A stretch of 44,335 nt of DNA from an uncultured Candidatus Poseidoniales archaeon (GTDB lineage Archaea; Thermoplasmatota; Poseidoniia; Poseidoniales; Poseidoniaceae), in the NCBI GenBank assembly GCA_902625885.1, contig CACODE010000010.1, positions 1-44,335 of the forward strand, given 5' to 3'. The notes under the pieces are model-generated. The model ran no database searches, was not told where the DNA came from, and worked only from the letters and a program-made list of their open reading frames with translations. Within the stretch, counting starts at the first letter, position 1, and every line of letters starts with the position of its first letter. The translations under genes and the position numbers were made by a program. Shown here one piece after another: positions 1 to 20,096 of the stretch.

Positions 1-17
1 AGAGATTCCCAGCAGAC

Positions 18-1568
18 ATGGCGGGAGACATACCAAAGGTGAACGTCGCCGCCAAGGACAGGGTGCTGCTGCATCTGCTTTCTCAGGACGAGTGGGCGGA
101 CAGATACATGGTGCCACCAAGCATGACGCGCCCCGGCATTGCCGAAGCCTGTGCCCAGCATCCACCAAACGTCAGCCGTACAATGCGAGACCTGCTGAAG
201 GGTCTCTTGGTTGAGGAGCACACCCGTGCGGTCCAGGGCGATGAACGCCGACAGAAAACATGGCAGTTGACCGATGAGGGCAGACTGAAAGCGCAGCAGC
301 GTCATGGTTCACTCGAGGCTACAAAGGTGCTTGTTCGCAACATGGATGGCGAACTCCTTGAGGTCAAAGCCTCCGAGGCCTCAACGCTTTTGGAAGCCGA
401 ATTGAGTTTGCTTCAAATCCTTCTACACGCCCAGCACGAGGGCGTGTTGACCTACGGAGACATCCGATTTGGAAGCATCAAGAAAGCCAGCGAGGAAGGG
501 TTGCCTGAACCCGGAAGATTGACGCCGCTTGTCGGGGTTCATGCAACCTACGCCAACCGCCCGCCCATTACCCGACCGGTGTACGGGCGAGACACCGAAC
601 TCCGGGCGCTTCACGATTGGTTTGGCGAACGCCACCCCTGCATGGTCGTTCACGGCATCGCCGGCATAGGCAAATCGACACTCGTCGCTCACTGGCTCCA
701 TCAACACATGGAAACCGACCCGCATCTCTCGGTTTGCTGGTACACGTGCCAGCCTTGGGACAAGGCGTTAGGGCTGGCGACAAGTTTGCTCCACCGTTTC
801 GGCATTGACGAAACCCACGACCCCTACCGCATCATCGAAACGCTGCCCCTCACGCCCGGAGCGGAAATGAACGTCGATGCATGGAAACGCCGCCTGACGG
901 CGTATATGACCGACGCAAACACCATCCGAGAGCGGTTCAAGGACAGCGTCGGTGGACCCCCTCCTTACTGGCTCATTGTTCTCGATGACGTGCATTACAT
1001 CACCGAAGAAGCGAGGCACCTTCTGGGCTCTTTGTTGCAATTGGCTCAAAACGGTCCGCTGCGCGTCTTGCTTGTTTCAAGGACCGAACTCAGTGTTTAC
1101 GACCGGCGGGACGTTCACATACGCCACACGGTTCGTGAGCTCCCACTGAAGGGTTTGAGCCTTGAAGCCACGGCCGCTTGGCTAGCAAACTTGGAAGGAG
1201 GGGAAGCACCGCCGGCCGATGAGGTTCATGCAGCGACTGGTGGGCACCCGCTGGCCATGGAACTCTTGGAGTTGTACGGTCAGCCGACGCACAAGGATTG
1301 GCTGCGTTTCTTGGACGAGGAAATTCTCCTCCGCTTGCCTGAAAAAGAAAAGGAAATGTTAGCGACGTTAGCGGTGGCCGACGAGCCGGTCAAGTGGGAG
1401 CACCTCGCCAAAAGCGTGGGGTGGAACGGAACGCCACCAGAGAATCTTCTCAAACACGGTCTTTTGCTTGAACTGGACGAAGGAATGTGGCTTCATGAGG
1501 CGTTGCGTGAGCGGTTGCTCAGGGACGTCGGCGATCGCCAAGAAGAGCGAAAAAAGAGGCTTGGTTGA
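18..1568 (+). CDS. Winged-helix STAND-type P-loop ATPase
   Basis: This 516-residue protein has an N-terminal winged-helix-like region (about residues 12-95) and a STAND/NB-ARC-like NTPase core. The Walker A motif GIAGIGKST is at residues 213-221 and a Walker B run ending LIVLDD at about 319-324. The stretch VYGRDTELRAL just before Walker A is typical of the STAND entry motif. STAND ATPases act as ligand-triggered switches, and with a DNA-binding N-terminus the likely role is a signal-responsive transcription regulator. There are no obvious C-terminal sensor repeats, so it is short for the class. The ATG at 18 is plausible, but the frame is open to the window edge, so the true start could lie upstream. 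It ends 2 nt before the convergent thioredoxin gene. The class call is firm and the ligand and targets are unknown. Confidence 0.75.
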   Translation: MAGDIPKVNVAAKDRVLLHLLSQDEWADRYMVPPSMTRPGIAEACAQHPPNVSRTMRDLLKGLLVEEHTRAVQGDERRQKTWQLTDEGRLKAQQRHGSLEATKVLVRNMDGELLEVKASEASTLLEAELSLLQILLHAQHEGVLTYGDIRFGSIKKASEEGLPEPGRLTPLVGVHATYANRPPITRPVYGRDTELRALHDWFGERHPCMVVHGIAGIGKSTLVAHWLHQHMETDPHLSVCWYTCQPWDKALGLATSLLHRFGIDETHDPYRIIETLPLTPGAEMNVDAWKRRLTAYMTDANTIRERFKDSVGGPPPYWLIVLDDVHYITEEARHLLGSLLQLAQNGPLRVLLVSRTELSVYDRRDVHIRHTVRELPLKGLSLEATAAWLANLEGGEAPPADEVHAATGGHPLAMELLELYGQPTHKDWLRFLDEEILLRLPEKEKEMLATLAVADEPVKWEHLAKSVGWNGTPPENLLKHGLLLELDEGMWLHEALRERLLRDVGDRQEERKKRLG

Positions 1569-6149: not shown

Positions 6150-6231
6150 GTGAACACCCTGACCAAAAAATCCTCACTTAACAAGCCAACCCCTAGCGGC
6201 CACCTTTGCAGGTCGTTTCAACCGGCTCTGC

Positions 6232-7467
6232 TCAAGTGCGGTTGATGTAGTCCAACACTTCATGCACAACCTGCCCGATGACGCGAATGTTTTCTTCGGT
6301 CAGATGAGGTTGCAGGGAGAGGTCGCAGGCAAATTCAATGTTCGCAATGGTGTCCTTGAGTTCGTCTTTGTGAGCTTCGATGTATTCCCACTGTCGGAAA
6401 TCACGAGCGTTTCGCTTGGCACCAAAGATTTGCATGGGGACGCCTTCTTGTTTCATGACATCGATGAAGCGGTCCGCATCTTGACGGTTCAGCCCGACGA
6501 GGTGAAACTGCATCGTGTCACAAAAGCTGTCCACCTGCGGAAGCGGCATGGGAATCTCGATATTGGGGTGGTCGCCGATAAGGGTGTGAAGGAGGTGCCA
6601 GTTCTTGACGTGGACGTCTTTGATGACGGGCAGTCGAGCGATTTGCGGCGTCAACATGGCGGCCGTTACTTCCTGCATGCGCATGGAATAACCCGGTATC
6701 TGATTTTGTAGCGAGTCCATCATTTCGTGGTCGAGGTCGAAGTGCTTCAGCCACAACCGCTCGTAAGAGCCTGCATAAAGCACGGCCTTGGCTGCGATTT
6801 CGTCGTTGTTGGTGATGAACAAACCGCCTTCACCAGCGCTCATCCCTTTGGAGGATTGGGTGGAGAAACAACCGATTTCCCCAAAGGTGCCAAGCAGTTG
6901 GCCGTTCCAACGCGTCTCGTAGGCGTGAGCACAATCCTCGATGAACACCAAGTCGTGTTTCCGAACCACCTTCATCACGGCGTCCATGTCAGGAACGTGC
7001 CCGCGCATGTAGGACATCAACAGAACCTTGGCCCCTGATGCTGCCGCTTTGCGGTCAAGATCTTCGGCGTCCATGCCCCACTCTCGGTTGCTTTCAACCA
7101 GAACAGGAACGGCCCGAGCGTGTTCGATGACGCTTGGCACAGCATGGAAGGTGAAGGCGTTGGTCAGGATTTTGTCGCCCGGTTGTACGCCTGCAATGTT
7201 GAGGGCGATGAACATGGCTGAACCGCAAGAATTTGTGCCAACTGCGTGCTTGACGCCCATGTAGTTCGCAAAAGCGTGTTCCAAATTTGCCGTGATGGAG
7301 GCTTCCTTAGATTTTGGCTGATAGCGGTACATCATGCCGGCCTGCATGGCGTTCACGGCAAGATCAATGCCAGCTTGAGGAATGGGTTTGAAGGCCTTGT
7401 TGTCAAAGTCAACAATGCTGTCGCCGCCTTCAACGACAAGTTTTCGCGACTGCTTTGGTGCTTCCAT
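6232..7467 (-). CDS. DegT/DnrJ/EryC1-family sugar aminotransferase
   Basis: This 411-residue PLP-dependent aminotransferase belongs to the nucleotide-sugar family. The substrate-binding GTNSCGSAMFIALN, the PLP-contacting FIEDCAHAYE (Asp about 178) and the Schiff-base lysine in SSKGMSAGEGG (Lys about 207) are all present. Such enzymes aminate 3- or 4-keto nucleotide sugars to give amino sugars for surface glycans. I took the ATG at 7467. The longer frame would overlap the upstream gene, and the protein begins sensibly here. It is the last gene of the minus-strand run starting with the UDP-sugar dehydrogenase. The exact keto-sugar substrate cannot be told from sequence, and members acting on non-sugar substrates exist. 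Confidence 0.88.
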   Translation of the reverse strand: MEAPKQSRKLVVEGGDSIVDFDNKAFKPIPQAGIDLAVNAMQAGMMYRYQPKSKEASITANLEHAFANYMGVKHAVGTNSCGSAMFIALNIAGVQPGDKILTNAFTFHAVPSVIEHARAVPVLVESNREWGMDAEDLDRKAAASGAKVLLMSYMRGHVPDMDAVMKVVRKHDLVFIEDCAHAYETRWNGQLLGTFGEIGCFSTQSSKGMSAGEGGLFITNNDEIAAKAVLYAGSYERLWLKHFDLDHEMMDSLQNQIPGYSMRMQEVTAAMLTPQIARLPVIKDVHVKNWHLLHTLIGDHPNIEIPMPLPQVDSFCDTMQFHLVGLNRQDADRFIDVMKQEGVPMQIFGAKRNARDFRQWEYIEAHKDELKDTIANIEFACDLSLQPHLTEENIRVIGQVVHEVLDYINRT

Positions 7468-7520
7468 GCCGTTCCCTTCGGAAGATTCCTCAGGCCCGAT
7501 GATTTTGAATGTATTGAATT

Positions 7521-8468
7521 CTAGCCTTCGCGATTTAACCACAATCCCCCGGCGAGTTCTTCCCACTCTATGGACTGTGGATGGCAAGAATTGTGGTAGT
7601 TCGTGAACTCACCAAAATACCACTTTCCGTCGGCCAAGAACATGTCGACCCTCGTGTAGTCGATGTCCTCTGCCAGTCGTTCAGCGATGCGAACCAGTTC
7701 GTCGATGCCGTCTTTGCCGAGAATGGAAACAATTTCATCGGGCGTGTGTTCCTCGCTCCAGCGGCAATTGGTCTGATGGATTCGCTGGCCTTCAAGGGTG
7801 TAAATGGACTGAGAATGGGATGTCATGCGCCCCGTATCGTATTGAATGAAGCCTGCTTTCCCGTGGAACACATGGACTTTCCAATCGTTTGGCAACCGGT
7901 TTTTGTCGGTCAACAACTCCTCGATCATCACCCCACGCGGCTCAATGCTCGCCGCCCCCCACTCTATCGGTGCAGGAAATTCCTTTCTCAAGCACCAACG
8001 CAAAGACCGTTCAATGCGCCATTTGGGCCAAGGCTTTCCGTTTTGGTCGCGCCAGTTTCGAATCACGCGATACCGGTTGTCCGTGCGAGAAAACAACCGG
8101 AGTTTCCGAGGAACGTTGGCAAGCGGCACCGCGCCGTTGTCCATGATGAACAGGGCGTCTCCAGACCAGTGGTTGGTCTTGATGACGCAACGTTCGGGCA
8201 GTTGGTCCCAATCAATGTTCACGTCTTCCGACCAGTGGTACAACTCGGTCAGGTGGCAAACCTGCTTTGATTCAACCAACTCGCGAGAGCGGTACTTGTC
8301 TTCCATCAACGGAAGAAGCGGGTTGCGGTCCTCCACACACCGCTTAAGTTGGAGCTGGCTGTAATGACCCCTTTTTGATTCATCAAATACGTGCCAAGGG
8401 TGAACGCCGCCTGGAAGCAACTTGGTCATCGGTTGTCCGTAAACGGGCTTCGGTTTTAGCCTTGGCAC
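7521..8468 (-). CDS. TupA-like ATP-grasp protein (teichuronopeptide biosynthesis family)
   Basis: This 315-residue protein resembles the TupA-like ATP-grasp family. Matching features are CVIKTNHWSGDALFI near the start, the core MIEELL, WKVHVFHGKAGFIQYDTGR, and the metal-binding end DYTRVDMFLADGKWYFGEFTNY. ATP-grasp enzymes join a carboxylate to an amine through an acyl-phosphate. TupA itself is tied to the peptide-bearing polyglucuronate of the Bacillus cell wall. Here it probably couples an amino acid or amine to a sugar carboxylate. The start is uncertain between GTG 8468 and ATG 8429. It lies between the glutaredoxin and aminotransferase genes, 53 nt before the latter. The substrate is inferred only from the neighbours. 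Confidence 0.75.
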   Translation of the reverse strand: MPRLKPKPVYGQPMTKLLPGGVHPWHVFDESKRGHYSQLQLKRCVEDRNPLLPLMEDKYRSRELVESKQVCHLTELYHWSEDVNIDWDQLPERCVIKTNHWSGDALFIMDNGAVPLANVPRKLRLFSRTDNRYRVIRNWRDQNGKPWPKWRIERSLRWCLRKEFPAPIEWGAASIEPRGVMIEELLTDKNRLPNDWKVHVFHGKAGFIQYDTGRMTSHSQSIYTLEGQRIHQTNCRWSEEHTPDEIVSILGKDGIDELVRIAERLAEDIDYTRVDMFLADGKWYFGEFTNYHNSCHPQSIEWEELAGGLWLNREG

Positions 8469-8493
8469 CGTTCAGCATTTCGTACGGTTTTCT

Positions 8494-8826
8494 TCAGGCC
8501 TGTCGACCGGCATCGTACATTTCGCGCATGCTGCCGTCTTGAAACATCTCGAGGGCGATGTCGGAGCCGCCGATGAGTTCTCCGTGAATGAACACTTGAG
8601 GCATCGTTGGGAAGTCCGACCAAGCGCAGACCGATGGAATGGCACGCGGATCAGACAGGATGTTCACAGCGGCAAACGGCTCGTCAACCTGTTGCGAGAA
8701 TTGTTGCATCACTTGAGCGGCCCGGTTTGAGAAACCGCATTGGGGTTGGTTTGGGTTGCCTTTCATGAACAACACGAGAGCGTGTTCATCGACGATTGCT
8801 TGCAGTTCTTCGGGGGTCCAGTCCAT
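8494..8826 (-). CDS. grxD: Monothiol CGFS glutaredoxin (Grx4/GrxD type)
   Basis: This 110-residue protein has the monothiol active site CGFS in the segment FMKGNPNQPQCGFSNRAAQV, the Pro-containing FPTMPQVFIHGELIGGSDI glutathione/cluster-binding region, and standard length. CGFS glutaredoxins bind a [2Fe-2S] cluster and act in iron-sulfur trafficking, often as a complex with BolA. The ATG at 8826 is preceded by AGGAG at 8 nt spacing, which favours it over an in-frame GTG at 8835. The gene begins 5 nt after the bolA stop, so the pair is almost certainly co-translated. This family is more usual in bacteria and eukaryotes than in archaea. Confidence 0.93.
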   Translation of the reverse strand: MDWTPEELQAIVDEHALVLFMKGNPNQPQCGFSNRAAQVMQQFSQQVDEPFAAVNILSDPRAIPSVCAWSDFPTMPQVFIHGELIGGSDIALEMFQDGSMREMYDAGRQA

Positions 8827-8831
8827 TTGTT

Positions 8832-9152
8832 TCACTCCTGTTTGTTTTTCCTGATTCGGCGAACGTGCAGGCCCTGCCCGCCGCCGTGTGGATCAAACGC
8901 CGTGTCGCCTGCAACCTCTGCTTGGGCAGGGGTCATGCACTTCAAATCGAGTGCGTGAATGGGATGAGGAATGTGTTGTTTCATGACAGCGAGGACCTGT
9001 TTTTGCCTCTGCAAGGGACGAACGCCCTCAAAGGTCTCTGAGATGACCCGGACGTGGAAATGGTCGCCTGAACCGTGCAGGTCCACGACTTCGACCGTTG
9101 CTTCGGGCACCGCCTTGAGCACCTCAGCTTCAATCCACGCCGCTTCAACCAT
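8832..9152 (-). CDS. bolA: BolA-family protein
   Basis: This 106-residue BolA/YrbA-like protein has a core containing VVDLHGSGDHFHVRVISETFEGV, RQKQVLAVMK and a HALDLKCMTPAQ C-terminal strand. BolA proteins partner monothiol glutaredoxins by sharing ligands of a [2Fe-2S] cluster, and the conserved His in the HALDLK segment is the expected cluster ligand. I chose the ATG at 9152 because GAGG lies 7 nt upstream; a GTG at 9158 is an alternative. It is directly followed by the grx gene. The C-terminal tail is Gly-, Arg- and Lys-rich. Finding this pair inside a glycan locus is odd and may be chance. Confidence 0.92.
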   Translation of the reverse strand: MVEAAWIEAEVLKAVPEATVEVVDLHGSGDHFHVRVISETFEGVRPLQRQKQVLAVMKQHIPHPIHALDLKCMTPAQAEVAGDTAFDPHGGGQGLHVRRIRKNKQE

Positions 9153-9215: not shown

Positions 9216-10463
9216 TTATTCCGAGGCCATTTTATCAAGAATCGACGCCACAGCTGTTGACTTTTTCACCGTAAGCCAAGGTTCCAACACCCTTGTCTCA
9301 ATGTCGTCTTTCAACCGCTTCAGGCCACCACCACTGATGTTCAGGAGTACGCAATCATCATTCTTCACCGTTCCAGTTTGTACCGCTTGAAGCAAGCTGG
9401 CGGCGGCCACAGCGCCCGGGGTCATGATGTCAATGCCCTCTATGGACTCAATCGTTTGACGAGCCGTCATGGCGTCTTTGCGATCAACGATGTAGGTTTG
9501 ACCATTGGAGGCCTTCAAAATGTCGTGGACCGCCCCCACCTGCCCGTAAGCCGGTCCTTTGTTGAGCAAATAATCGGAGTAGACCTCCACGTCTTCCACA
9601 GGGAAATCCTCAGGCACAAGGTGATTCCTGCCCGCCTGCCAAGCACTGTGAATGGGGTGATGTTCGACATTTTGAGAGACATGTTGCCGGGGGACCGGCC
9701 CTTCAAACAGCCCTTCGTTGACGAGACGTTCGGCCATTTCATGAATGCCGATGGGGCCCGGGCCGCCCCCAATGCCCTGAAAGTAGTGGTCTGGAAGACG
9801 ACCAATCGTAAACGCAGCGTCAAGCATCAGGCTGCCGATACCGTCTCGTCGAGCCACGTTGTGGACGCTGCCTTCCATTTGCCAGCCAGGCAGATGTGCA
9901 GCGATGCCTTTAGCGACGGTCTTGGCGTCGTAGTAATCACCGTCCTCAACCACGACGAGGCGGACGCTCTCAGCGTCGTTTTCCGGTCGGGTCCAGATGC
10001 GCTTAGCGTGATCCTTGCCCACCACCACGATGAGCGGCGTGTTGTCAAGACCGCAGAAATGCGTGAAAGCCCGAGCGGTGTTACCAGCGCTGGCGCAAAT
10101 AAGGCCGGTGCAACCGTGGTCGTGCATGCGCTGAATGGTGGGAACCGCTTCCATGTCTTTGAAACTCCCCGTGGGGCACAAGCCGCCTTTTTCTGGCCAG
10201 TATCCATGATAGGTGACCCAAAGGTTGCTGAGGCCAAGGGCTTCACCAAGCGCTACCGCACGGTACGTGACGGTGCCCGCCACGTACCTGTTCGCTTGGG
10301 AAACAGGTAGCCACGAGAGGTATTTCCAGACGCCGTCTGCGTTCTTTCTCAGGGTAAATGGCTCGTTGTAAACGGCGCGCAGAAGAGCGTTATCGGTGTG
10401 ATGAAGGGTGTAGGCATCATCTATCAATTCGCCCGTTTTGAGGCACTGGAGTTGATACTTCAT
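9216..10463 (-). CDS. Threonine-synthase/cysteate-synthase-like PLP enzyme
   Basis: This 415-residue fold-type II PLP enzyme has the lysine in PTGSFKDMEA (about Lys102), ASAGNTARAF as the substrate/phosphate loop and a late ISGGGLKRL PLP-phosphate loop. Overall layout, the LLRAVY segment and the WLPV segment before the PLP lysine recall cysteate synthase, the archaeal threonine-synthase paralogue that makes L-cysteate from O-phosphoserine and sulfite, and the length is close to that family. The usual N-terminal zinc cysteines are mostly missing (one Cys, two His). I used the ATG at 10463, since the longer frame adds a non-conserved extension. It lies downstream of the UDP-sugar dehydrogenase. 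Threonine synthase or another beta-replacement activity remains possible. Confidence 0.75.
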   Translation of the reverse strand: MKYQLQCLKTGELIDDAYTLHHTDNALLRAVYNEPFTLRKNADGVWKYLSWLPVSQANRYVAGTVTYRAVALGEALGLSNLWVTYHGYWPEKGGLCPTGSFKDMEAVPTIQRMHDHGCTGLICASAGNTARAFTHFCGLDNTPLIVVVGKDHAKRIWTRPENDAESVRLVVVEDGDYYDAKTVAKGIAAHLPGWQMEGSVHNVARRDGIGSLMLDAAFTIGRLPDHYFQGIGGGPGPIGIHEMAERLVNEGLFEGPVPRQHVSQNVEHHPIHSAWQAGRNHLVPEDFPVEDVEVYSDYLLNKGPAYGQVGAVHDILKASNGQTYIVDRKDAMTARQTIESIEGIDIMTPGAVAAASLLQAVQTGTVKNDDCVLLNISGGGLKRLKDDIETRVLEPWLTVKKSTAVASILDKMASE

Positions 10464-10554
10464 TGCCTCACCGTGCCGAAAAGGAGCGACAACATTTCGT
10501 CCGAAGGTCGCCGTATAATTGTTGAGGAATATGGTGATTTGCAAAGGCCGTTCA

Positions 10555-11907
10555 TCACGAGAACGGGCGGCCAACGGCAAAGCATGACCACCCTTGCTCG
10601 CTCAAGGCGTCCAAATCCAACACGCGACGGCCGTCGTAAATTCGGGGGGTTGGCATGGTCTTCGCAAGCGACACCCAATCAAGGTTGACACAGGCTTTGT
10701 GCGCCGTGACCAACACGGCAAGGTCGTGGCCCTTGGCCTTGGTGGGGTCTTCTATCACTTCAACCGAATCGGGAAAGGTTTCCGGGTCGATGTGAGGGTC
10801 GTAAACGCTGACCTGAATGCCGCGTTGTTGCAAAGCCTCTGCCAGCGGTTCTGCAGGCGTTTCGCGAGGGTCGCCCACCTCGGCTTTGTACGACCATCCG
10901 AGGAAAAGCACCTTGGTTGATTCGGCCGACAAACCGGCCTTCCACAGAATATCCACAATCACCTGCGCTACATGATTGGGCATTGAACGGTTCACAGCAC
11001 GTGCGGCCGTGATGAGGCCAGCAGGGACGCCAACATCGCTGGCTCGCTGAATCATGTAGTAGGGATCAACAGGAATGCAGTGACCGCCCACGCCAACACC
11101 AGGCGTGTAACGATGGAAGTTCCACTTCGTCGCTGCGGCGGAAAGCACATCCTCCACGTCCACGTCCATGGCCGGGAAGATGCGGGCCAGTTCGTTAACC
11201 AGAGCGATATTGATATCACGTTGCACGTTTTCAATTACTTTCGCTGCCTCAGCCACCTCAAGTTTCCCGACATAGCGGACGTCTTCGCTTGTCAAATGCT
11301 TGTAAAAACGTACCAGACCATGCCCTATCAATTCATTGTTGCATCCAATCACGCGAGCCACTTTCCTAACCGTTCGCATTTCGTCGCCGGGGTTAAAACG
11401 CTCAGGGCAATAAGCGATGTCAACTTCTTTACCTTCAGTGAGACCGTATTTTTGGATCAACGGCCGCCATGTTTGGTCCGTGACACCAGGATAAACCGTG
11501 GATTCAAGCACAACGGTGGTGTGACGTGATTTATCGATGGATGCGAAGATTCTATCTCCCGCTGAAAAAACATACGATAGGTCCGGTTTGGAATCAATGG
11601 TGATAGGGGTTGGTACCGTCACCAGGATGATGTCGCAGATTGAAGTCAGGTCTTCAATGGAGCTTGTTATGTTCCACGAGTCAAGTTTTGTGGACGGTAT
11701 TTGATCATTTAGAGCAGCATCACCAATTGGATTTCTCTGCTCGTGGAGTGCTTCGATGACGCTGATTGACGTGTCGCAACCCCACACTTGAAATCCTGAA
11801 TCGTGGAATCCAATAGCGGTTGGCAGCCCAACATAACCCAAGCCGACGACGCCAACAATAGGATTTGTATCTGGCGTAAAGTCGTGCGATACTTCGCCGG
11901 TTGACAT
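10555..11907 (-). CDS. UDP-N-acetylhexosamine 6-dehydrogenase (WecC/WbpA type)
   Basis: This 450-residue enzyme oxidises C6 of a UDP-N-acetylhexosamine (ManNAc or GlcNAc) twice with NAD to give the uronic acid. The Rossmann GVVGLGYVGLP motif is at residues 19-29, the catalytic-site lysine lies in EAAKVIENVQRD (about Lys223), and the catalytic cysteine in GVGGHCIPVDPYY (about Cys277). A C-terminal NAD/sugar domain with GWSYKAEVGDPRETP follows. The length is normal. The ATG at 11907 is directly supported by the start of the conserved domain. It is divergent from the Wzm transporter gene and heads the minus-strand run. Whether the substrate is ManNAc or GlcNAc cannot be decided here. Confidence 0.93.
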   Translation of the reverse strand: MSTGEVSHDFTPDTNPIVGVVGLGYVGLPTAIGFHDSGFQVWGCDTSISVIEALHEQRNPIGDAALNDQIPSTKLDSWNITSSIEDLTSICDIILVTVPTPITIDSKPDLSYVFSAGDRIFASIDKSRHTTVVLESTVYPGVTDQTWRPLIQKYGLTEGKEVDIAYCPERFNPGDEMRTVRKVARVIGCNNELIGHGLVRFYKHLTSEDVRYVGKLEVAEAAKVIENVQRDINIALVNELARIFPAMDVDVEDVLSAAATKWNFHRYTPGVGVGGHCIPVDPYYMIQRASDVGVPAGLITAARAVNRSMPNHVAQVIVDILWKAGLSAESTKVLFLGWSYKAEVGDPRETPAEPLAEALQQRGIQVSVYDPHIDPETFPDSVEVIEDPTKAKGHDLAVLVTAHKACVNLDWVSLAKTMPTPRIYDGRRVLDLDALSEQGWSCFAVGRPFS

Positions 11908-12009
11908 GGTCTGGCGAGTTGGCCTTACCTCATCAATTCAACTATTGCGATAGCGGCATGGAAGGATTTCATAAAGGTTTGATGCAAAGGACGCCCTATG
12001 GAGGACCAA

Positions 12010-12846
12010 ATGGATATCCAACTCACCGAAGTTGGACCCAAAACCTCTTTTTTTACTGCTCCAGTTTCCTCTCTTTCAATTCTTTTTTCTCATCGATTTC
12101 TCATTAAGAATTTATTGAAGAGGGAAACAAAAGGACGCTACAATAACTCATTTCTTGGCTATTCCTGGACGGTTCTGGAACCGGCTCTGCTCTCGTCTGT
12201 TTACTATTTTCTTTTCATCATGCTCGCAGACAATCCCGATCGACTCTATCCTGTCTGGGTCATCATAGGCGTGATTGTGTGGACGTGTTTCGGGAAATGT
12301 TTGCAAGCCACTGTCACATCGTTAACGAGAAACGCCTCAACAATCCATCTCGTTTATTTCCCGAGAATCATTTTTTCATACTCCACGGTTGGTTCCACCA
12401 TCTGGACCACGGTGATGAGTTCCTTTGTGCTCATACCGCTTTTGTTTATCTACGACATCCAAATTTCTTGGCAACTTCTTCTCGTTCCACTCGCTATTTT
12501 CCTCGCAGCCTTCAATGCGATTGGCTTCGGTTTGCTTCTGGCGCCTGCAAACTGTATCAACAGAGACATTGAACACCTCATCCGGTTCATAGTCAGAGCT
12601 GGATTCTTTGTCTCTCCTGTCATGTGGACTTGGGGCATGGCCGTTGAGCGAGGATGGGCAGCTGATGTTGTTCTTTGGAACCCCATGGTGTTTCCAATCA
12701 CCTTAGCGCGAGACGGCTTTTTGGGCCATGTGACTGAATTTCCATTGAATGGCATGATGATTTCAGTCGGCTGGGGCGTCCTCATGTGGGTTATTGGTTC
12801 AGCCCTTTTCAGCAAATATGAACACTCGGCGGTGAAGTACTTATGA
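12010..12846 (+). CDS. wzm: ABC-2 polysaccharide export permease (Wzm type)
   Basis: This permease of about 278 residues has six predicted membrane segments and the conserved early RETKGRYNNSFLGYSWTVLEP motif of Wzm/TagG proteins. It forms the channel through which a completed lipid-linked polysaccharide crosses the membrane. I place the start at ATG 12010 because GGAGG (12000-12004) lies 5 nt upstream. An ATG at 11998 would add four residues. The stop overlaps the start of the ATPase gene in an ATGA, so the two are translationally coupled. Base composition here is noticeably AT-richer than the flanks. Confidence 0.92.
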   Translation: MDIQLTEVGPKTSFFTAPVSSLSILFSHRFLIKNLLKRETKGRYNNSFLGYSWTVLEPALLSSVYYFLFIMLADNPDRLYPVWVIIGVIVWTCFGKCLQATVTSLTRNASTIHLVYFPRIIFSYSTVGSTIWTTVMSSFVLIPLLFIYDIQISWQLLLVPLAIFLAAFNAIGFGLLLAPANCINRDIEHLIRFIVRAGFFVSPVMWTWGMAVERGWAADVVLWNPMVFPITLARDGFLGHVTEFPLNGMMISVGWGVLMWVIGSALFSKYEHSAVKYL

Positions 12847-13562
12847 TGGGCCAATCGATCATTGTAGAGGACGTTTCCTTGTCCTTTCCAAAGAAAAAAA
12901 GCATACTTCAAATGTTGAAGAAAAGCGATACCAGCAGTTTTCTCGCCCTAGACAAGATCAATTTCTCTGTCAAAAAAGGCGAGGTTGTTGGCATCATTGG
13001 CAGAAACGGATGTGGAAAATCGACCCTCCTGCGAATTATCGCTGGGATTTTTTCTCCGGATAAGGGAACATGCAAATCCGCTGGAAAAATTTCACTATTG
13101 GCTGGACTTGGTACCGGATTTACTGGCCATTTGACAGGCCGTGAAAACGCCTTCCTCTACGGGAGCATCTTGGGCCACGAGCAAGCCGTCATGAAAGAAC
13201 TGATGGATGAGATTATTGCCTTCAGTGAACTAGAATCGTTCATCGATGAGCCGCTACGAACGTACTCTGCAGGAATGAAGGCCAGACTGGGCCTCGCAGT
13301 TGCCAGTGCTCTTAATCCTGAGATTTTGTTGATTGATGAGGTTCTTGGCGTAGGTGACCCTGTTTTCAAGGAAAAATCGAAGAAAAAAATTCTGGACATG
13401 GTATCTGAAGCTGGCACGGTGGTCATTGTGAGCCATTCGTTTGGCCTCATGACATCAATCTGTGATCGTGTCATCCACATGAGTGATGGAGAAATCAAAT
13501 TCATTGGTGAACCGCAAGATGCGATTTCATCGTATTACGCCTCAGAAGAAGGGAGGAAGTAG
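12843..13562 (+). CDS. wzt: ABC transporter ATPase for polysaccharide export (Wzt type)
   Basis: This 239-residue ATPase has Walker A GRNGCGKST, signature YSAGMKARL (the Wzt/TagH-type variant of LSGGQ), Walker B ILLIDEVLGVGD and a switch histidine in IVSHSF. With the coupled Wzm it powers glycan export. It is the short form without the C-terminal carbohydrate-recognition domain of O-antigen Wzt proteins, so export is probably not controlled by a chain-end modification read by this subunit. The start overlaps the permease stop by 4 nt. The next gene begins 2 nt after its stop. Confidence 0.94.
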   Translation: MMGQSIIVEDVSLSFPKKKSILQMLKKSDTSSFLALDKINFSVKKGEVVGIIGRNGCGKSTLLRIIAGIFSPDKGTCKSAGKISLLAGLGTGFTGHLTGRENAFLYGSILGHEQAVMKELMDEIIAFSELESFIDEPLRTYSAGMKARLGLAVASALNPEILLIDEVLGVGDPVFKEKSKKKILDMVSEAGTVVIVSHSFGLMTSICDRVIHMSDGEIKFIGEPQDAISSYYASEEGRK

Positions 13563-13563
13563 A

Positions 13564-14520
13564 TTGAAGCAACATCATATCCGAGTGAACAAGGAGGCCG
13601 AGGATTCGTACTCGTTTGCTGTTGGCGATGAACTCAGAAAATCGTTAATATCTCCTTGGAAGATCCCGCTGCTCCCGATTTCATTGCCAAAGCGTATTCT
13701 CTCCCATCGGAAGGACAAAGCTGCAAACGATGCGCTGCCCTACTTGGTGGATTGTATATTTGTCTATGATTTAGAGAAAATGCGGTTATCTGATCAAAAA
13801 TCCTTCATCAACCAGTCATTAAATTACTCTGAAAACAGCATAGGCATCGGTATCGGAGATTCACTGATTGATGCAAATTTTCGCCATTCCGTTCCTACAC
13901 GGCGAGAAATGGACATTGAGCCAAAGGAATGGAATGCTTTACTGGAAAAATTTCTGTTGGGTATTATCCGAGCGTACCGGCCAAAAAAATTCGTTTTTGT
14001 CGGAAAATATCCCTATGCAGGGCTTATGTCCGTGCTAAGGAAATGTGAAACGGAGAACGGATTCTACTGGATTCATGTGCGGGGAGATTTAGAAACGATT
14101 GAACAACGCTCAGAGAAATTCACAAAATCAAAATCGCTTTCCCACTTTACCGACCACGACACCATCGTTCGGAATACAATCTTCTTCGACCACGAACCTT
14201 CAGATGAAGTGGGTAAACAGTTGAAGTCAATCGGCGTGAACATTATCAGCACACCCGAGCATGCAGAATATCTGGTCTTACGCCATGAGGAATACGATTG
14301 CAAGAGTTTGCTGATGCGCAATCAGACGGTATTCATTCTTCCGAGCGCCCAACCCTCTCTAGGACAAATTCCCGATTACCTGCTTCCAAATCTTGTGGTA
14401 TCTGATACCGAGGAGAAGAATGAAACGATCCTCTCTGTGGTCAGTTTCCGAAAAAATCAACGTAAGAACAAATCCCCACTCATGCCAGTTGAGGCAAAGA
14501 TTGACCTGTGGCTGGAGTGA
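13564..14520 (+). CDS. Truncated MurG-like glycosyltransferase-related protein
   Basis: This 318-residue protein is not recognised on its own. Its middle matches the glycosyltransferase at 18685-19962: both have EWNALLE, then a beta strand with F-x-G-x-(Y/F)-P-Y-x-G-(M/L) and a W-x-R-G element. The nucleotide-sugar-binding C-terminal half with GGYNS in that neighbour has no visible counterpart here. It may be a non-catalytic partner, a pseudoenzyme, or an enzyme with a diverged donor site. The start is taken as TTG 13564, with GGGAGG 7 nt upstream, directly after wzt. The sequence is very AT-rich: 18 G/C of 60 bases in 13741-13800. It ends 4 nt before the convergent GT/PP-loop gene. Confidence 0.6.
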   Translation: MKQHHIRVNKEAEDSYSFAVGDELRKSLISPWKIPLLPISLPKRILSHRKDKAANDALPYLVDCIFVYDLEKMRLSDQKSFINQSLNYSENSIGIGIGDSLIDANFRHSVPTRREMDIEPKEWNALLEKFLLGIIRAYRPKKFVFVGKYPYAGLMSVLRKCETENGFYWIHVRGDLETIEQRSEKFTKSKSLSHFTDHDTIVRNTIFFDHEPSDEVGKQLKSIGVNIISTPEHAEYLVLRHEEYDCKSLLMRNQTVFILPSAQPSLGQIPDYLLPNLVVSDTEEKNETILSVVSFRKNQRKNKSPLMPVEAKIDLWLE

Positions 14521-14524
14521 TCGG

Positions 14525-17500
14525 TTAATCTGCAAACAAATCGATACCCAGCAAGGTCTCGACTTCCGAATCCGACATGGGTTCTGCGATGTTGTTCAAT
14601 TTCTTGGCCACATAGGTTCTGTAAGCATCAGGAATGAGATCTAAGAACGCTGGATTGTACCGTTCAATCATTGTATAATCTCCGTCCATCAATTTACCTA
14701 CGTCTGGAAACTTGGTACGAATAAAATTCTGTTGCTCTTGCGGGAGGCGCTGAATGGCATACAAAGTCGAAATCGCTTGCTTGAGTGGTTTTTTCTCCAA
14801 AAAGATCTCAATTTCGCCTTGAATTTGCACTTCTTTTCCTTTCATCGAATTCTTGCGGAAGCATTTCCAGCATTTTCCACAAACCTTGCCCGCTTCTTTG
14901 GAACGCAGGCAACTCTCTGCATAGTCCGCGTAGTCAGAGTTGTCCACAATGCGCTGATTGATGATCTCAGATGCCCCAGAGGTTGGAAAAACAAGGTCTA
15001 GGCCTGCTTTTTCTAATATTGACGAGTGTGTTTTCCAATACGATGAGAGGTTGAAGTCCCTTCCTTTATGTCCGTGGAAAAGGTAGGCGTTTTCCAATGG
15101 CATTCCCATGGCAATTGAGCCCAACTCAAAATAATCAGCAAGCAGAATGACATGGACGGCCCCGGCAAAATCCGTGCTAAAGCCGACAGATTTCCCGTGA
15201 TCAAGTCGTATCTGTTCGTGATTACTCTTTACGATCACAACCTGTTTCCCATTCTCTCGTAACTTTTCTATGAAACGGAATGCGTTGGCGTGATTCAACT
15301 TTGATTCAAACCCATCCCGCTGATGGTACATCAAGACCGTTTCTGGTGGCATAAGTTCCATACATGCAGTGGAGTCCACCCCCGCACTGAACGCTAAACC
15401 GCACCTCCAGCCCTTCTGGCGCGTTGGCTCCCAGTTATTCAGTATGGTTCTGTCCCACGGAGAACACAAGAAATGATGAGCGATTCGAAGAATATCAGCG
15501 TGGGTGTTGTTGAGGTCCCAACCTATGGGCATCTCAAAGAAAATATCTCTCCCAGAAGCATCAAAAATGAGACGTTGCCCTATCTGAGACCAGTAATTAG
15601 CGATTGCATACTCGGATTTTACGCTTGTACCCATCTCAATTTTATCTCGTTTAAACATCGAAATCCAAGGGAAGGACCTCCTGAGAATTTCTTTGTTGGG
15701 TTTGAAAATGTTTGAAAAAAACTTCGTGTTTCTCCACTCGTCACGCATCCTTCGCTCTGTCTCTTTGTCAAGGCTGTCAACGAACTCCTGCCAACGTACT
15801 CGAGCTGTATTTTTTTGTTCGCCGGCATTGGTCAAGGTCACGTTCCCACCATGGAACCGCCTCAACAAAATATACGACCCCGTGTGGTCCAGTTTGTGTC
15901 CTGCTCGCGCTATTTCCAGATTCATGATGTAATCCGTTCCATAACTGTAATTTTCATCGTACGGGAATTCGAGGAGAACAGATCGCTTAATCATGCTCGC
16001 AGGGTGGAGCATGATTTTCCCCCCGAACAATATCTGGCTGTATCCGTGCTCTCCACCTGAAAAATATTCATGGTTCAAATTTGCATCTTGATCAATCCAA
16101 CCTCCGAAACTACCAGAGGAACCATCGGATAGGCAGTCGAGTTGCTCTTGTATTCGATTAGGCATCATCAAATCGTCATCGTCCATGATAACAATGTACT
16201 CTCCCTTGGCCATCTGAACCCCAATGTTTCGCGATTTTGGTATACCTGATGCCTCCTTTTTCAGATAGCGAATTCGGAGATCTGCAAATTGTTTAACCAC
16301 CTCTTCTGTTTCATCCTCTGACCCGTCATCGACAATTAACAACTCAAAATTCTCGTAACTTTGATTCAGGACGCTCCTTATTGCATCTGATAGGAGTTTT
16401 GACCTGTTTCTTGTGATGATAACGACCGAAACAAAAATTTGGTCTTCAAATTGGTCAATTTCCATTACTGACCTCGTAAACTTGACAGCGCGCGGACCGC
16501 TGTATGAGTGATCCTTGACAACGTTCCATTCCATCAGTCCCATGCGTTCAAGTGCATTTTTCATGGTCAAGAAGGTGTTCTCGGTTTGAACCTTTGATTT
16601 GCTTATTGAAGTCGATTGCTCGTGGAGTGCGTACTTGTACAACAGTTGGTCGTGAAACTCAATTTCTCCAACTTCACTTAACTTCTGGAAGAAATCATAG
16701 TCTACAGCGTTGAGAAGCGTCTCTGAAAACCCACCAACTCGAGACCAATCTCGTTTTCGAAACAAACGAGGATGATGCACAATCATGCCGTGAAGCATCC
16801 TTTCCCTGGTAAACGTAGGATAATACCAGGCTTCTTCCAAAGTATCTTCTTGCTGGTTCCATTTGTAATGCCTTCCGTAGACACAACCGATTTGAGGATC
16901 CTTCCGAATTTCGGGCAACAGCGTTTCGATGGCATCAGGAAGCAACTCGTCATCGCTGTCCAGTTGAAGGATGTACAACCCTCTTGCCGCACGAATGCAT
17001 GCGTTGCTTGCCGAACCAATGCCCCCGTTTGCCTGATGAATAATCTGAATTTTAGGATGGTCGCTGTACATCATGTCGAGGTGTTCTCCTGTCCCATCTG
17101 TTGAACCGTCGTTGCAAACGACAATGTCAAAATCTCGATACGTTTGTTCCAATGCTGATTGAATCGCTCGATCAATGGTCTTCTTCGCATTATAAGCAGG
17201 AATGTAAATTGAAACCATTGAGGTCGTTGACTGAACCTCAGGGTCGTAATCTCTGTAGGTTGGAACCATGTCCAGCAGCATCGGCCTAGTGATCAATTTC
17301 CCAGCCTCTCGGTCAACAAATTCTCTGCCGCCCGGAGGTTCTTGGTGAAGCCCTAATGCGTCCAATAATGGAATGAAATAATAACCTGCATTCATCACCC
17401 TATACCCGAATTCGTTGTCTTCTGCACCCCATGCTGTAAAACTCTCATCAAACGGACCTGCATCCGAAAATATGCGCCTGTTGAAGCCCACATTTCCGCA

Positions 17501-18160
17501 GGAAGACGCTCTGAAGGGGTGGGGTGAAGTTTTCAGATTGTCAGTTTCAGAATAAATCGCTTCCCTCCAATCTTTCGAAGGAGATTGTTTCATGACGGCG
17601 TTTTTGGTTGCCACCGGAGGAAGTTCCAACATCACAGAAGGGTTTCTCAAGACCTCTTCTATCGGAATATCGTTTGCATCGACGTATCTCCGATGACCAA
17701 TAAGGAGAACTTTTTCATCAAGACATAACCACTTTGCAAACAGTTCGACCAAATTTGGAACGGGGGCCATGTCGCAATCCAAAATGATGATGTTGTCGTG
17801 TTTAGCGGCCCGAACGCCAAGATTTCGAACATGCGATAGCCGATATCCCAAGTCTTTCTGACGAACGTAATTTACATCGAAGTGTTCTTCAAATTCCAAA
17901 ATCAGTTGCTCGGGATGGTCCGAGGAACCATCATCAGCAATGATGACCTCGATCAAATGCAGTGGGTAAGTCTGGTGAGTGAGCATCGCCATCGTTCGAC
18001 GAAGCATATCAATTCGATTGTAGACTGGAAGAACGACGGAAATCGGAATGTTTGGATTTGAAGCCATAGCCTTCTGTTCCAAAAACGAATAATCATTCCC
18101 CTTTCCTTCAATCTTGGGAAGGACCAAACCTTTGGGTAATCGGTCGCCGTATGATGTCAT
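14525..18160 (-). CDS. Triple GT2 glycosyltransferase fused to a PP-loop ATPase-like domain
   Basis: This 1211-residue protein has four parts. GT2 domain 1 (about 37-290) carries DDGSSD, a DCD metal site (128-130) and a GAEDNEFGYR catalytic motif. GT2 domain 2 (about 313-560) carries NDGSTDGT and DSDDE (401-405). GT2 domain 3 (about 574-800) carries DDGSEDET and a DDDD cluster (660-663). The C-terminal part (about 850-1211) has a PP-loop-like FSAGVDST (924-931), a further HGHKGRDF segment and cysteines at 1084, 1094, 1097 and 1100, resembling the zinc cluster of QueC-like PP-loop enzymes. The GT2 domains probably extend a glycan on the cytoplasmic side. The PP-loop domain would adenylate a carboxylate or carbonyl for amidation or a similar step. 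The ATG at 18160 is 3 nt after the upstream stop. All three GT2 domains keep their metal motifs. Confidence 0.85.
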   Translation of the reverse strand: MTSYGDRLPKGLVLPKIEGKGNDYSFLEQKAMASNPNIPISVVLPVYNRIDMLRRTMAMLTHQTYPLHLIEVIIADDGSSDHPEQLILEFEEHFDVNYVRQKDLGYRLSHVRNLGVRAAKHDNIIILDCDMAPVPNLVELFAKWLCLDEKVLLIGHRRYVDANDIPIEEVLRNPSVMLELPPVATKNAVMKQSPSKDWREAIYSETDNLKTSPHPFRASSCGNVGFNRRIFSDAGPFDESFTAWGAEDNEFGYRVMNAGYYFIPLLDALGLHQEPPGGREFVDREAGKLITRPMLLDMVPTYRDYDPEVQSTTSMVSIYIPAYNAKKTIDRAIQSALEQTYRDFDIVVCNDGSTDGTGEHLDMMYSDHPKIQIIHQANGGIGSASNACIRAARGLYILQLDSDDELLPDAIETLLPEIRKDPQIGCVYGRHYKWNQQEDTLEEAWYYPTFTRERMLHGMIVHHPRLFRKRDWSRVGGFSETLLNAVDYDFFQKLSEVGEIEFHDQLLYKYALHEQSTSISKSKVQTENTFLTMKNALERMGLMEWNVVKDHSYSGPRAVKFTRSVMEIDQFEDQIFVSVVIITRNRSKLLSDAIRSVLNQSYENFELLIVDDGSEDETEEVVKQFADLRIRYLKKEASGIPKSRNIGVQMAKGEYIVIMDDDDLMMPNRIQEQLDCLSDGSSGSFGGWIDQDANLNHEYFSGGEHGYSQILFGGKIMLHPASMIKRSVLLEFPYDENYSYGTDYIMNLEIARAGHKLDHTGSYILLRRFHGGNVTLTNAGEQKNTARVRWQEFVDSLDKETERRMRDEWRNTKFFSNIFKPNKEILRRSFPWISMFKRDKIEMGTSVKSEYAIANYWSQIGQRLIFDASGRDIFFEMPIGWDLNNTHADILRIAHHFLCSPWDRTILNNWEPTRQKGWRCGLAFSAGVDSTACMELMPPETVLMYHQRDGFESKLNHANAFRFIEKLRENGKQVVIVKSNHEQIRLDHGKSVGFSTDFAGAVHVILLADYFELGSIAMGMPLENAYLFHGHKGRDFNLSSYWKTHSSILEKAGLDLVFPTSGASEIINQRIVDNSDYADYAESCLRSKEAGKVCGKCWKCFRKNSMKGKEVQIQGEIEIFLEKKPLKQAISTLYAIQRLPQEQQNFIRTKFPDVGKLMDGDYTMIERYNPAFLDLIPDAYRTYVAKKLNNIAEPMSDSEVETLLGIDLFAD

Positions 18161-18163
18161 GGA

Positions 18164-18688
18164 TTACCCCTCCTTTCTTAATGGCTGAATAACGGCCCAT
18201 TTTCTTTCTTTTCCACTTTCGTAGACTGTGGAATTGATTACGCTCTCCCCACCATGCCAGTCAAGGAGCTTCTGTAGCAAATCAAACTCATCGTCCCGAT
18301 GAACATCATCAACAATGAATATTGCTGTTTTCGGGAGTTCGTCAAGAAACGACAAGAGTCCGTGCCTGCCGATGTCGCCCGGAGGTCCATCAACAATAAC
18401 CACAGAAATCGGCCTTGATTTAATGGCGTTAATTATTGGCAGTGGATCATACCAACCTTGTTGGTTGTGTTCGGCAGACACATGGTTCTCTATGATTTCA
18501 GCATGCACATATTTTGACGGCGCCAAGGCCAACCAGTCTGGATTGTGCTCGATGGATAATAGATCAAATTGCTCTGCAAGTTTGAAACTCCCATATCCAC
18601 TTCCAAACTCGAGAACAGAGGACCCTTTCTCAACATTCTCTTGGAGCCACGAGAAAATTTCATTCGGCATCATCCAATCTGTGTTCAT
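18164..18688 (-). CDS. Class I SAM-dependent methyltransferase-like protein
   Basis: This 174-residue Rossmann protein has a motif I-like SVLEFGSGYGSF (residues 24-35), an acidic end of strand 2 in LSIEHNPDW and a VVIVDGPPGD strand-4 motif. That arrangement fits small class I methyltransferases found in glycan loci, acting on sugars or lipid-linked oligosaccharides. It overlaps the upstream glycosyltransferase stop by 4 nt (ATGA) and ends 3 nt before the big GT/PP-loop gene, so the three are one operon. The acceptor is unknown, and a non-methylating Rossmann role cannot be excluded. Confidence 0.7.
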   Translation of the reverse strand: MNTDWMMPNEIFSWLQENVEKGSSVLEFGSGYGSFKLAEQFDLLSIEHNPDWLALAPSKYVHAEIIENHVSAEHNQQGWYDPLPIINAIKSRPISVVIVDGPPGDIGRHGLLSFLDELPKTAIFIVDDVHRDDEFDLLQKLLDWHGGESVINSTVYESGKERKWAVIQPLRKEG

Positions 18689-19962
18689 GCTTTGCCCTCC
18701 AGATTTGCGCGGAGTGCTTTGCTTAATGTATCAGCACCGTTCTCGTGCGTTACTGATTTTATCTCTCCAATGCTGTTCAATAATTTTTGAATTCCATCTT
18801 GGATGGTCTTCTCTGTTCTGGTCTTGACAACATAACCCCAGCCTTCATCCTCAGCCACCAAACAGCGAGCTAACTGATCGTCCATTCCAGTCTCCAAATT
18901 TGGATAGAAAAGGACCGGGAGTCCAAACGCTCGTGTCTCATGGAAAGAGTTGTAGCCGCCTGCTTGAATGACAGCATCAAAACCCTTGAAATACTGAGAA
19001 TTCGGGTAGTCTCGAAGTACATGAACGTTGGGCAATTCAACATCAATTCTCGACCCTATCATTGACTCACCCAGCACAACATGAATCCCATCATGCTTGA
19101 GAATTTCATCCAACGTTATCCGAATTTCACTTGTGATGTCATTGATTTGTCCGGCACCAAGTTGAACATAAACCACTCGACAGTCTTGTGGAATTCCGAG
19201 ACGGTACCGTGCTTTCTCTCGAGGTATCAAATCGGTTTCGTCAAGGAGAACCATCGGTGGACACCTCATCAGTTCAACGCCGTGCTCGAGTTCTTCCTCT
19301 TGCTCGTCAACGGCGTCTCCCGGACGAACGATCACGTCGAAATGTTGTACGCTGTCAACGGGGATTCGCGCTCCTTTTCGGAACATCCCTCTGCGCATCC
19401 AAATTTTGCTCAAATTTTCCCGTCCCTCTATGGCTCTGAGCATCCCTCTGTAAGGGAAGGCCCCGTCAAAAATGAACATTGAGGGGTTGTGCGTCTCAAA
19501 ACAAAAGGTCAGTTCTTCCTCAAGAAGGGCATTCCATTCTTGCGAATCAATTCCCTGGAAATATTTCGGACCCGAAATATGGTGGGCAGGAATACCGTGC
19601 GGTTTCAGCAAGTGAAGAGTTGGCATTGTGGTGAAAAAAATCACTTCGAGATTCGAGTCGTCCTTCTTCATGCGTTTTGCCAACGCAAGCATTCTGGTAA
19701 AGTGACCAAATCCTACGCCATTGGTTGGAAACATTATCACACAATTTCCTCTGACTAGCGGCCTGCCCGCTGAATTTAGCTGTAGACGCTTTGGCTGAGG
19801 TCTCAAACCAACCAACTCCAATCCGATAAGGAACATCACAACTGGAAGAGAAACAATGAGAAAAGGAGCCCGCCAAGGTTTCCGGATTGCGGTCGTGAGG
19901 TGGAGGCCTAATCGAAACGATGGAGAGTTCCGCAAACGATGGTTTTCTCGTTTGAGCCTCAT
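18685..19962 (-). CDS. MurG/GT28-like glycosyltransferase with N-terminal membrane segment
   Basis: This 425-residue protein has a hydrophobic anchor near the N-terminus (FLIVSLPVVMFLIGLELVGL), then a GT-B domain opening with GVGFGHFTRMLALAKRM, and a C-terminal donor-binding domain with VVYVQLGAGQIND and the diagnostic VIQAGGYNSFHETRAFGLP. This matches the GT1/GT28 glycosyltransferase fold, which transfers sugar to a lipid-linked acceptor at the membrane. I preferred the ATG at 19962 over the TTG at 19998. It is the first gene of a minus-strand operon with the methyltransferase-like and GT/PP-loop genes. Its N-terminal half is paralogous to the short protein at 13564-14520. Confidence 0.85.
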   Translation of the reverse strand: MRLKRENHRLRNSPSFRLGLHLTTAIRKPWRAPFLIVSLPVVMFLIGLELVGLRPQPKRLQLNSAGRPLVRGNCVIMFPTNGVGFGHFTRMLALAKRMKKDDSNLEVIFFTTMPTLHLLKPHGIPAHHISGPKYFQGIDSQEWNALLEEELTFCFETHNPSMFIFDGAFPYRGMLRAIEGRENLSKIWMRRGMFRKGARIPVDSVQHFDVIVRPGDAVDEQEEELEHGVELMRCPPMVLLDETDLIPREKARYRLGIPQDCRVVYVQLGAGQINDITSEIRITLDEILKHDGIHVVLGESMIGSRIDVELPNVHVLRDYPNSQYFKGFDAVIQAGGYNSFHETRAFGLPVLFYPNLETGMDDQLARCLVAEDEGWGYVVKTRTEKTIQDGIQKLLNSIGEIKSVTHENGADTLSKALRANLEGKA

Positions 19963-20096
19963 GATGCTCGTCGTTTTATCGATACGGCTCTCCCCCAACT
20001 TCCTGTCGTGAACTTTGAGTTATTGTCATGTCGGTATTCAGCGATAAGACCTTCGTATTCCCGAAGGCTCATCAACAGGCGAGTCCAGCGGAAACC

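Follow-up and report, generated by a model that had tools for sequence, protein, structure and literature searches.

What might a PP-loop domain, of a class that uses ATP to activate its substrate, be doing at the end of three glycosyltransferases? The question is raised by one gene of an uncultured Candidatus Poseidoniales archaeon. It lies on contig CACODE010000010.1, analysed over its full 44,335 nucleotides (hereafter the window); the assembly to which it belongs, as contig C10, totals 1.66 Mb and is 70% complete. Positions 14525..18160 of the minus strand form a single unbroken open reading frame (ORF), running from ATG to stop and encoding 1211 amino acids; the plus strand across the same span is full of stops. 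An earlier note, made from the letters alone and naming no strand, had read the product as three domains of glycosyltransferase family 2 (GT2) fused to a QueC-like PP-loop domain that would amidate or thiolate a glycan. This interpretation is partly supported: it was right in class and is unproven in chemistry. The C-terminal domain is a member of the family DUF6395, whose proteins very probably work in glycan modification, and amidation of a uronic acid is proposed tentatively as its reaction.

The architecture itself was confirmed by Pfam and by the positions of the motifs. Three stretches of the protein match Glycos_transf_2 (GT2, PF00535; 296 bits, E 1e-88), each with an acidic motif. GT2 domain 1 (residues ~40-275; 17336..18043, minus strand), recognised by both Pfam and NCBIfam, has its DCD motif in ILDCDM at 126 and a Glyco_transf_7C-like WGAEDNEFGYR; domain 2 (residues ~317-545; 16526..17212, minus strand) has DSDD in QLDSDD at 399, and domain 3 (residues ~577-800; 15761..16432, minus strand) has DDDD in IMDDDD at 658. 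They are followed by a full DUF6395-type unit (residues 850-1211; 14528..15613, minus strand), characterised as a QueC-like PP-loop domain with Pfam, AlphaFold2, Foldseek and hhalign. Within it lie the PP-loop FSAGVDST (residues 924-931; 15368..15391, minus strand) and a C-x9-C-x2-C-x2-C cluster (residues 1084-1100; 14861..14911, minus strand), in which C1084, C1094, C1097 and C1100 form a probable zinc site.

A complete homologue at locus L038, 1212 amino acids long, has three GT2 domains and DUF6395 in identical order, and its C-terminal domain is 65% identical to that of the window protein. Contig L037, 94% identical to window positions 10675-16663, carries the C-terminal 712 residues of the fusion; this copy is 99% identical to the window protein, and the differences at codon positions 1, 2 and 3 number 8, 1 and 66. 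The excess of third-position differences (66 against 9 at the first two positions) indicates that the frame is under purifying selection at the protein level. A chance ORF or a frameshift fusion is ruled out by the same-length homologue together with this codon-position pattern. Close relatives in named genomes are nearly all from Candidatus Poseidoniales (Marine Group II archaea, MG-II), including the MG-II chromosome CM001443. L037 and L045, both from the metagenome-assembled genome (MAG) NP1472, carry a gammaproteobacterial label; each is nearly identical to Poseidoniales sequence or nested within it, and the MAG is probably misbinned or mislabelled.

The C-terminal domain was assigned to DUF6395 (PF19932) with 80.6 bits against a cut-off of 25 (E 1.8e-22), the Pfam match proper covering residues 1047-1202 (14555-15022, minus strand). 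The Pfam model describes the C-terminal half of the domain only, with the PP-loop outside it, and the entry gives no function. No paper on DUF6395 by name was found in the literature searched, and no member was found in the phage collection. An alignment of 86 family members (21-99% identity) showed the PP-loop S, G, D and S and the four cysteines to be invariant or nearly so, and further polar positions (E, R, GF, D, SE) are also kept across phyla. The window copy has SAG rather than SGG, as do the otherwise normal members L009, L028 and L033. The AlphaFold2 model of the domain has a predicted local distance difference test score (pLDDT) of 95.3 and a predicted template modelling score (pTM) of 0.92, and its highest Foldseek matches in the PDB are TilS, NcsA, TtuA, MnmA and LarE (E to 1e-4). 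The domain, as modelled, almost certainly has the PP-loop (HUP) fold, and it is very likely to be a catalytically active PP-loop ATPase. The earlier note had staked its reading on this fold and on the conservation of the PP-loop serine and the cysteines, and both were borne out.

Profile comparisons relate the domain to QueC and other PP-loop families. With hhalign, the DUF6395 profile scored 58 with LarE, 51 with WbuX, 50-52 with QueC, 43 with TilS/TtuA, 38 with NadE and 37 with argininosuccinate synthase; eight unrelated families encoded in DUF6395 loci, taken as controls, scored 16-24. The global alignment with bacterial QueC (E 1e-7, 186 columns) spans all of QueC and pairs PP-loop with PP-loop and the zinc cysteines with C-x9-CxxCxxC; the local alignment picks out the zinc motif alone. 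Most named top Foldseek matches among viral predicted structures are phage QueC (template modelling (TM) score by target 0.5-0.60), and an unnamed protein reaches TM 0.66. The Pfam QueC model gave the C-terminal domain 11.8 bits, below its cut-off of 22, with sub-threshold matches to some DUF6395 members at the PP-loop and zinc motifs. Searching PDB sequences with the single domain returned nothing significant; the family profile retrieved argininosuccinate synthase alone, in a match centred on the PP-loop (E 0.0055).

QueC (PF06508) and its relatives QatC and Cap9 share with DUF6395 the SxGxDS motif followed, ~160-180 residues on, by C-x(7-9)-CxxCxxC within one HUP domain. The zinc motif of QueC, a C-x8-CxxCxxC that follows the PP-loop, is matched by the invariant C-x9-C-x2-C-x2-C, so the zinc-cysteine cluster that the earlier note had likened to QueC stands. 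However, the QueC signature motifs YxQxHxxE, VPxRN and YPDC (PMC13329287), which serve its substrate, are absent from the conserved columns of DUF6395 in alignments of family members, and DUF6395 is for this reason a distinct branch and not QueC. It also has ~70 residues more in front and ~100 more behind, and its genes lie in polysaccharide loci, whereas QueC goes with queD and queE. The family is best regarded as a QueC-like branch of its own, with additional parts that are beta at the N-terminal end and helical at the C-terminal end. That it works like QueC, by carboxylate activation, is a weaker claim drawn by analogy, separate from its membership of the family.

The window's genome has a true QueC elsewhere (L132), with the signature motifs, which rules out DUF6395 as an orthologue replacing a lost QueC. 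The Poseidoniales QueC (L132 = G000:C1:182391-183068; loci among L113-L137) keeps SGGMDS, YGQxHxxE, VPNRN and YPDC; its zinc cysteines (C-x8-CxxCxxC) are lost in 13/13 aligned copies, and some frames (L116, L121, L122, L137) run on into an MsrB-like domain. A role in a defence system, as for the anti-phage proteins QatC and Cap9, was rejected, as no PADLOC family matched at up to E 1.

The gene neighbourhood brings the domain to glycans. Most DUF6395 proteins stand alone and are ~430-490 amino acids long. Among the 73 copies flanked on both sides by 1 kb or more of DNA, a GT-B protein of one family lies within 250 bp in 55 and within 2.5 kb in six more, this family making up 75 of all 811 genes in DUF6395 loci. 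The pairing also occurs in Halobacillus, Oceanirhabdus, Alkalithermobacter and a deltaproteobacterium, and it suggests that the functional unit is DUF6395 with its GT-B partner, the GT2 fusion being an addition. The partner in the window (18685..19998, minus strand), recognised by family adjacency, is a GT28/GT1-like GT-B glycosyltransferase; structural matches of its AlphaFold2 model (pLDDT 87.6) are to UDP-glycosyltransferases, with E to 1e-13. A weak TIGR03590 match had suggested a PseG-type sugar-nucleotide hydrolase; this was set aside because the model resembles UDP-glycosyltransferases. Several loci (L041, L038, L058, L064, L075-L080) hold more than one DUF6395 paralogue, often each with its GT-B partner, with up to three at L041, a locus of the MG-II chromosome.

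Fusions point the same way. Poseidoniales DUF6395 domains are joined to three GT2 domains, two GT2 domains, a GT25-like/GT2 combination or LicD (DUF6395-LicD), and Glycomyces has a DUF6395-GT2 fusion; the survey of GT2/PP-loop fusions suggested by the earlier note thus found them to recur and added GT25-like and LicD forms. In a quick tree a single clade of 17 members (Shimodaira-Hasegawa-like approximate likelihood ratio test (SH-aLRT) 92) holds 12 of the 14 fusions; the LicD and Glycomyces fusions fall outside it, and well-supported branches force at least four changes. Since DUF6395 occurs mostly alone, its fusion came late and repeatedly. That it has been joined separately to several kinds of glycan enzyme speaks for an action of the domain on glycans, and the predicted role in glycan synthesis is supported by fusions and neighbourhood alike.

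Genes for a nucleotide-sugar dehydrogenase and for polysaccharide export are frequent in the loci. Across 29 DUF6395 loci of at least 15 kb, a nucleotide-sugar dehydrogenase is present in 23, Wzm in 23 and Wzt in 21; both dehydrogenase and Wzm occur in the loci of Halobacillus, Oceanirhabdus and the deltaproteobacterium, and the dehydrogenase in that of Alkalithermobacter; Firmicutes share this context as well. Among sampled Poseidoniales the dehydrogenase co-occurs with DUF6395 within each family (20/29 with vs 14/44 without, p 0.004; 3/3 vs 7/52, p 0.005). The nucleotide-sugar dehydrogenase model recognises these dehydrogenases, and the types closest to them are those for UDP-N-acetylmannosaminuronic acid (UDP-ManNAcA) and UDP-N-acetylglucosaminuronic acid (UDP-GlcNAcA). 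The window has one of them (10555..11907, minus strand; TIGR03026, 363.8 bits against a cut-off of 189.8), which makes UDP-uronic acid and is likewise most similar to UDP-ManNAcA/GlcNAcA types, as well as the Wzm-like permease (11998..12846, plus strand; NCBIfam NF050109, E 6e-18) and the Wzt-like ATPase (12843..13562, plus strand; NCBIfam NF050108, E 5e-56) of a polysaccharide ATP-binding cassette (ABC) exporter. The GT-B partner and this dehydrogenase/exporter context, which lay outside the feature considered by the earlier note, say more about function.

The DUF6395 domain would accordingly be pictured as a zinc-stabilised, QueC-like PP-loop ATP pyrophosphatase serving the assembly of a surface polysaccharide that the Wzm/Wzt transporter would export. 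It would adenylate the C6 carboxylate of a uronic acid (ATP -> AMP + pyrophosphate), and ammonia would attack the adenylated carboxylate to give a uronamide. Tethered to three GT2 domains and served by the GT-B transferase, it may have as its target either the chain under construction or the donor of the glycosyltransferases. The uronic-acid carboxylate and the uronamide are a natural guess because QueC activates a carboxylate and uses ammonia as its partner (PMC13329287). Uronamides are known sugars, made by the ATP-dependent AsnB-like amidotransferase WbpS (PMC7468200), and archaeal glycans are known in which ManNAcA is substituted with an amino acid on position 6 (PMC2952790). WbpS/WbtH, of the asparagine-synthase type, share with DUF6395 the proposed product and PP-loop chemistry; being AsnB-like (PMC7468200), WbpS belongs to a different PP-loop family, and the fusion protein has no AsnB match in Pfam. 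ATP-dependent amidation of a uronic-acid carboxylate with ammonia is thus put forward as a tentative assignment. The broader formulation is equally provisional: a QueC-derived zinc PP-loop ligase, with its own GT-B or fused to GT2 or LicD, may join the uronic-acid carboxylate in an archaeal or bacterial surface polysaccharide to ammonia or to an amino acid, which might be cysteate, as a further, separate route to sugar-acid amidation.

Several points weigh against this assignment. No member of DUF6395 has a substrate or product on record. The PDB superpositions of the model are partial, and global scores are low (TM 0.3 by query) since nothing in the matched structures corresponds to the two terminal parts of the domain. 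Many polysaccharide loci have a uronate dehydrogenase, and the link of this enzyme to DUF6395 may thus be to the pathway in general. The p values for co-occurrence of the dehydrogenase with DUF6395 within Poseidoniales families are uncorrected for phylogeny inside the families, and a strong dehydrogenase match is missing in 9 of 32 sampled DUF6395-bearing Poseidoniales genomes, which are incomplete MAGs. The flanking DNA examined in Priestia, Nonomuraea and Glycomyces holds no dehydrogenase, exporter or GT-B partner.

Uronamide formation must also be set against other chemistries. Like WbpG and NASAT, the domain might activate the carbonyl of a sugar N-acetyl group and add ammonia, giving an acetamidino (amidine) group. 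The WbpG/WbuX/NASAT family (TIGR03573) is of the same superfamily, combines a PP-loop with a tetracysteine and serves surface-glycan synthesis; WbuX matches the DUF6395 profile over 102 columns with 50.7 bits, the locus dehydrogenase most resembles N-acetyl-sugar types, and the structural neighbours of the NASAT crystal structure, TtuA, NadE and LarE (PMC10607449), are those of the DUF6395 model. However, the global profile alignment fails, and the conserved cysteines of aligned NASAT relatives (CXXCXn[GN]XCXXC; PMC10607449) precede the PP-loop, whereas all four of DUF6395 follow it. TIGR03573 is not among the best 25 of 34 NCBIfam families matching the fusion protein, the genome's own match sitting elsewhere (G000:C37), and no HisH/HisF-like genes were seen among the recurring neighbour families identified, not every neighbour having been scanned. 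Amidine synthesis is therefore rather unlikely, and from the comparison with QueC, TilS and WbpG proposed in the earlier note the QueC-like character and the PP-loop class are retained, but not the cysteine order of WbpG. That the domain forms an amide with a bigger amine than ammonia, such as the amino acids cysteate or threonine, is unlikely as well; models for such a ligase would be TilS, which uses lysine, and QatC and Cap9, which use a protein N-terminus. A cysteate synthase gene (9216..10580, minus strand; TIGR03844, 423 bits against a cut-off of 324.9) overlaps the dehydrogenase gene of the window by 26 bp; the two are also adjacent in L041, L050 and L058 and near each other in L037/L042. 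TupA-like ATP-grasp and DltB/DltD-like genes occur in such loci, and Methanococcus glycans carry threonine on position 6 of ManNAcA, the enzyme attaching an amino acid to the archaeal uronate being still unidentified in a 2010 review (PMC2952790). Yet cysteate synthase shows no association with DUF6395 in the window's family (12/29 with vs 15/44 without, p 0.62) and was not seen in bacterial DUF6395 loci. Linked in some loci and lacking that association, cysteate is only a lead as the amine, and the window enzyme as its supplier is speculative.

Alternatively, a catalytically dead domain might bind nucleotide or acceptor only and tune the glycosyltransferases; a regulatory subunit would fit the fusion and pairing, and the window copy does have SAG in place of SGG. 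The conservation across phyla of the PP-loop residues and the other polar positions, and the presence of SAG in normal members, make this quite unlikely. Thiolation as in LarE, TtuA and NcsA, where the cysteines would hold an iron-sulfur cluster or donate sulfur to give a thiocarboxylate or thio-sugar, is unlikely. LarE, a sulfur insertase, acts on a carboxylate with ATP, and its profile (TIGR00268) gave the best local score, 58.1 bits over 184 columns; TtuA, NcsA and LarE are also high in Foldseek. Its alignment with DUF6395 does not match cysteine to cysteine, however, and the C-x9-CxxCxxC cluster has the zinc pattern of QueC, with which it lines up. No LarE match was found in the window's genome at E 1e-20, and no lar genes among the DUF6395 neighbours identified; those that recur include neither larB/larC nor sulfur-relay genes. 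Judged from motifs and alignments, DUF6395 is neither QueC, nor WbpG, nor LarE, and amidation of a uronic acid with ammonia is kept as its tentative function.

The window contains several further genes of note. A small S-adenosylmethionine (SAM)-methyltransferase-like protein (18164..18688, minus strand), in the same operon as the fusion, separates it from the GT-B partner; its function is read from a sequence motif only, with a weak Methyltransf_23 match (E 0.15), and homologues adjoin DUF6395 fusions in L038, L043-L045, L050 and L058. A second, divergent GT28-like protein (13483..14520, plus strand), convergent with the fusion and probably starting downstream of 13562, is similar to the GT-B partner (BLASTP E 9e-12; hidden Markov model match E 3e-10). 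A DltB-like/DltD-like pair is inserted between dehydrogenase and cysteate synthase in L037, the closest relative (6202-8839; window 10482-10675, which has none), and from this comparison it appears to be a swappable decoration cassette. A TupA-like ATP-grasp protein is encoded at 7521-8468 (minus strand) and also in L050 (2622-5936), there fused to tetratricopeptide repeats and GT2; such proteins in DUF6395 loci hint at amino-acid ligation to glycans. At the left edge, an AAA/STAND-type NTPase (AAA_16; 3-1568, plus strand) extends past the window.

The finding is not categorically new, as PP-loop enzymes with zinc clusters are known from glycan loci (WbpG). Large proteins of several domains also occur among WbpG relatives in Flavobacteria (PMC13329287), and a PP-loop protein built in broadly this way is therefore not new either. 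The literature searched held no description of the DUF6395 branch, its GT-B pairing or the three-GT2 architecture; the statement that no enzyme of this architecture is described stands to that extent, its domain being a known Pfam family that is mostly stand-alone. The familiar role of QueC-type enzymes is in making a tRNA base, and a recently described one is the tagging of defence proteins. If the proposal is true, a QueC-like branch acting on surface glycans widens the range of this scaffold and gives an unnamed Pfam family a testable function. The uncultured Poseidoniales abound in the surface waters of the ocean; in their surface glycans, uronates that are amidated or bear an amino acid would, if present, alter the charge of the cell and its recognition by phages or grazers.

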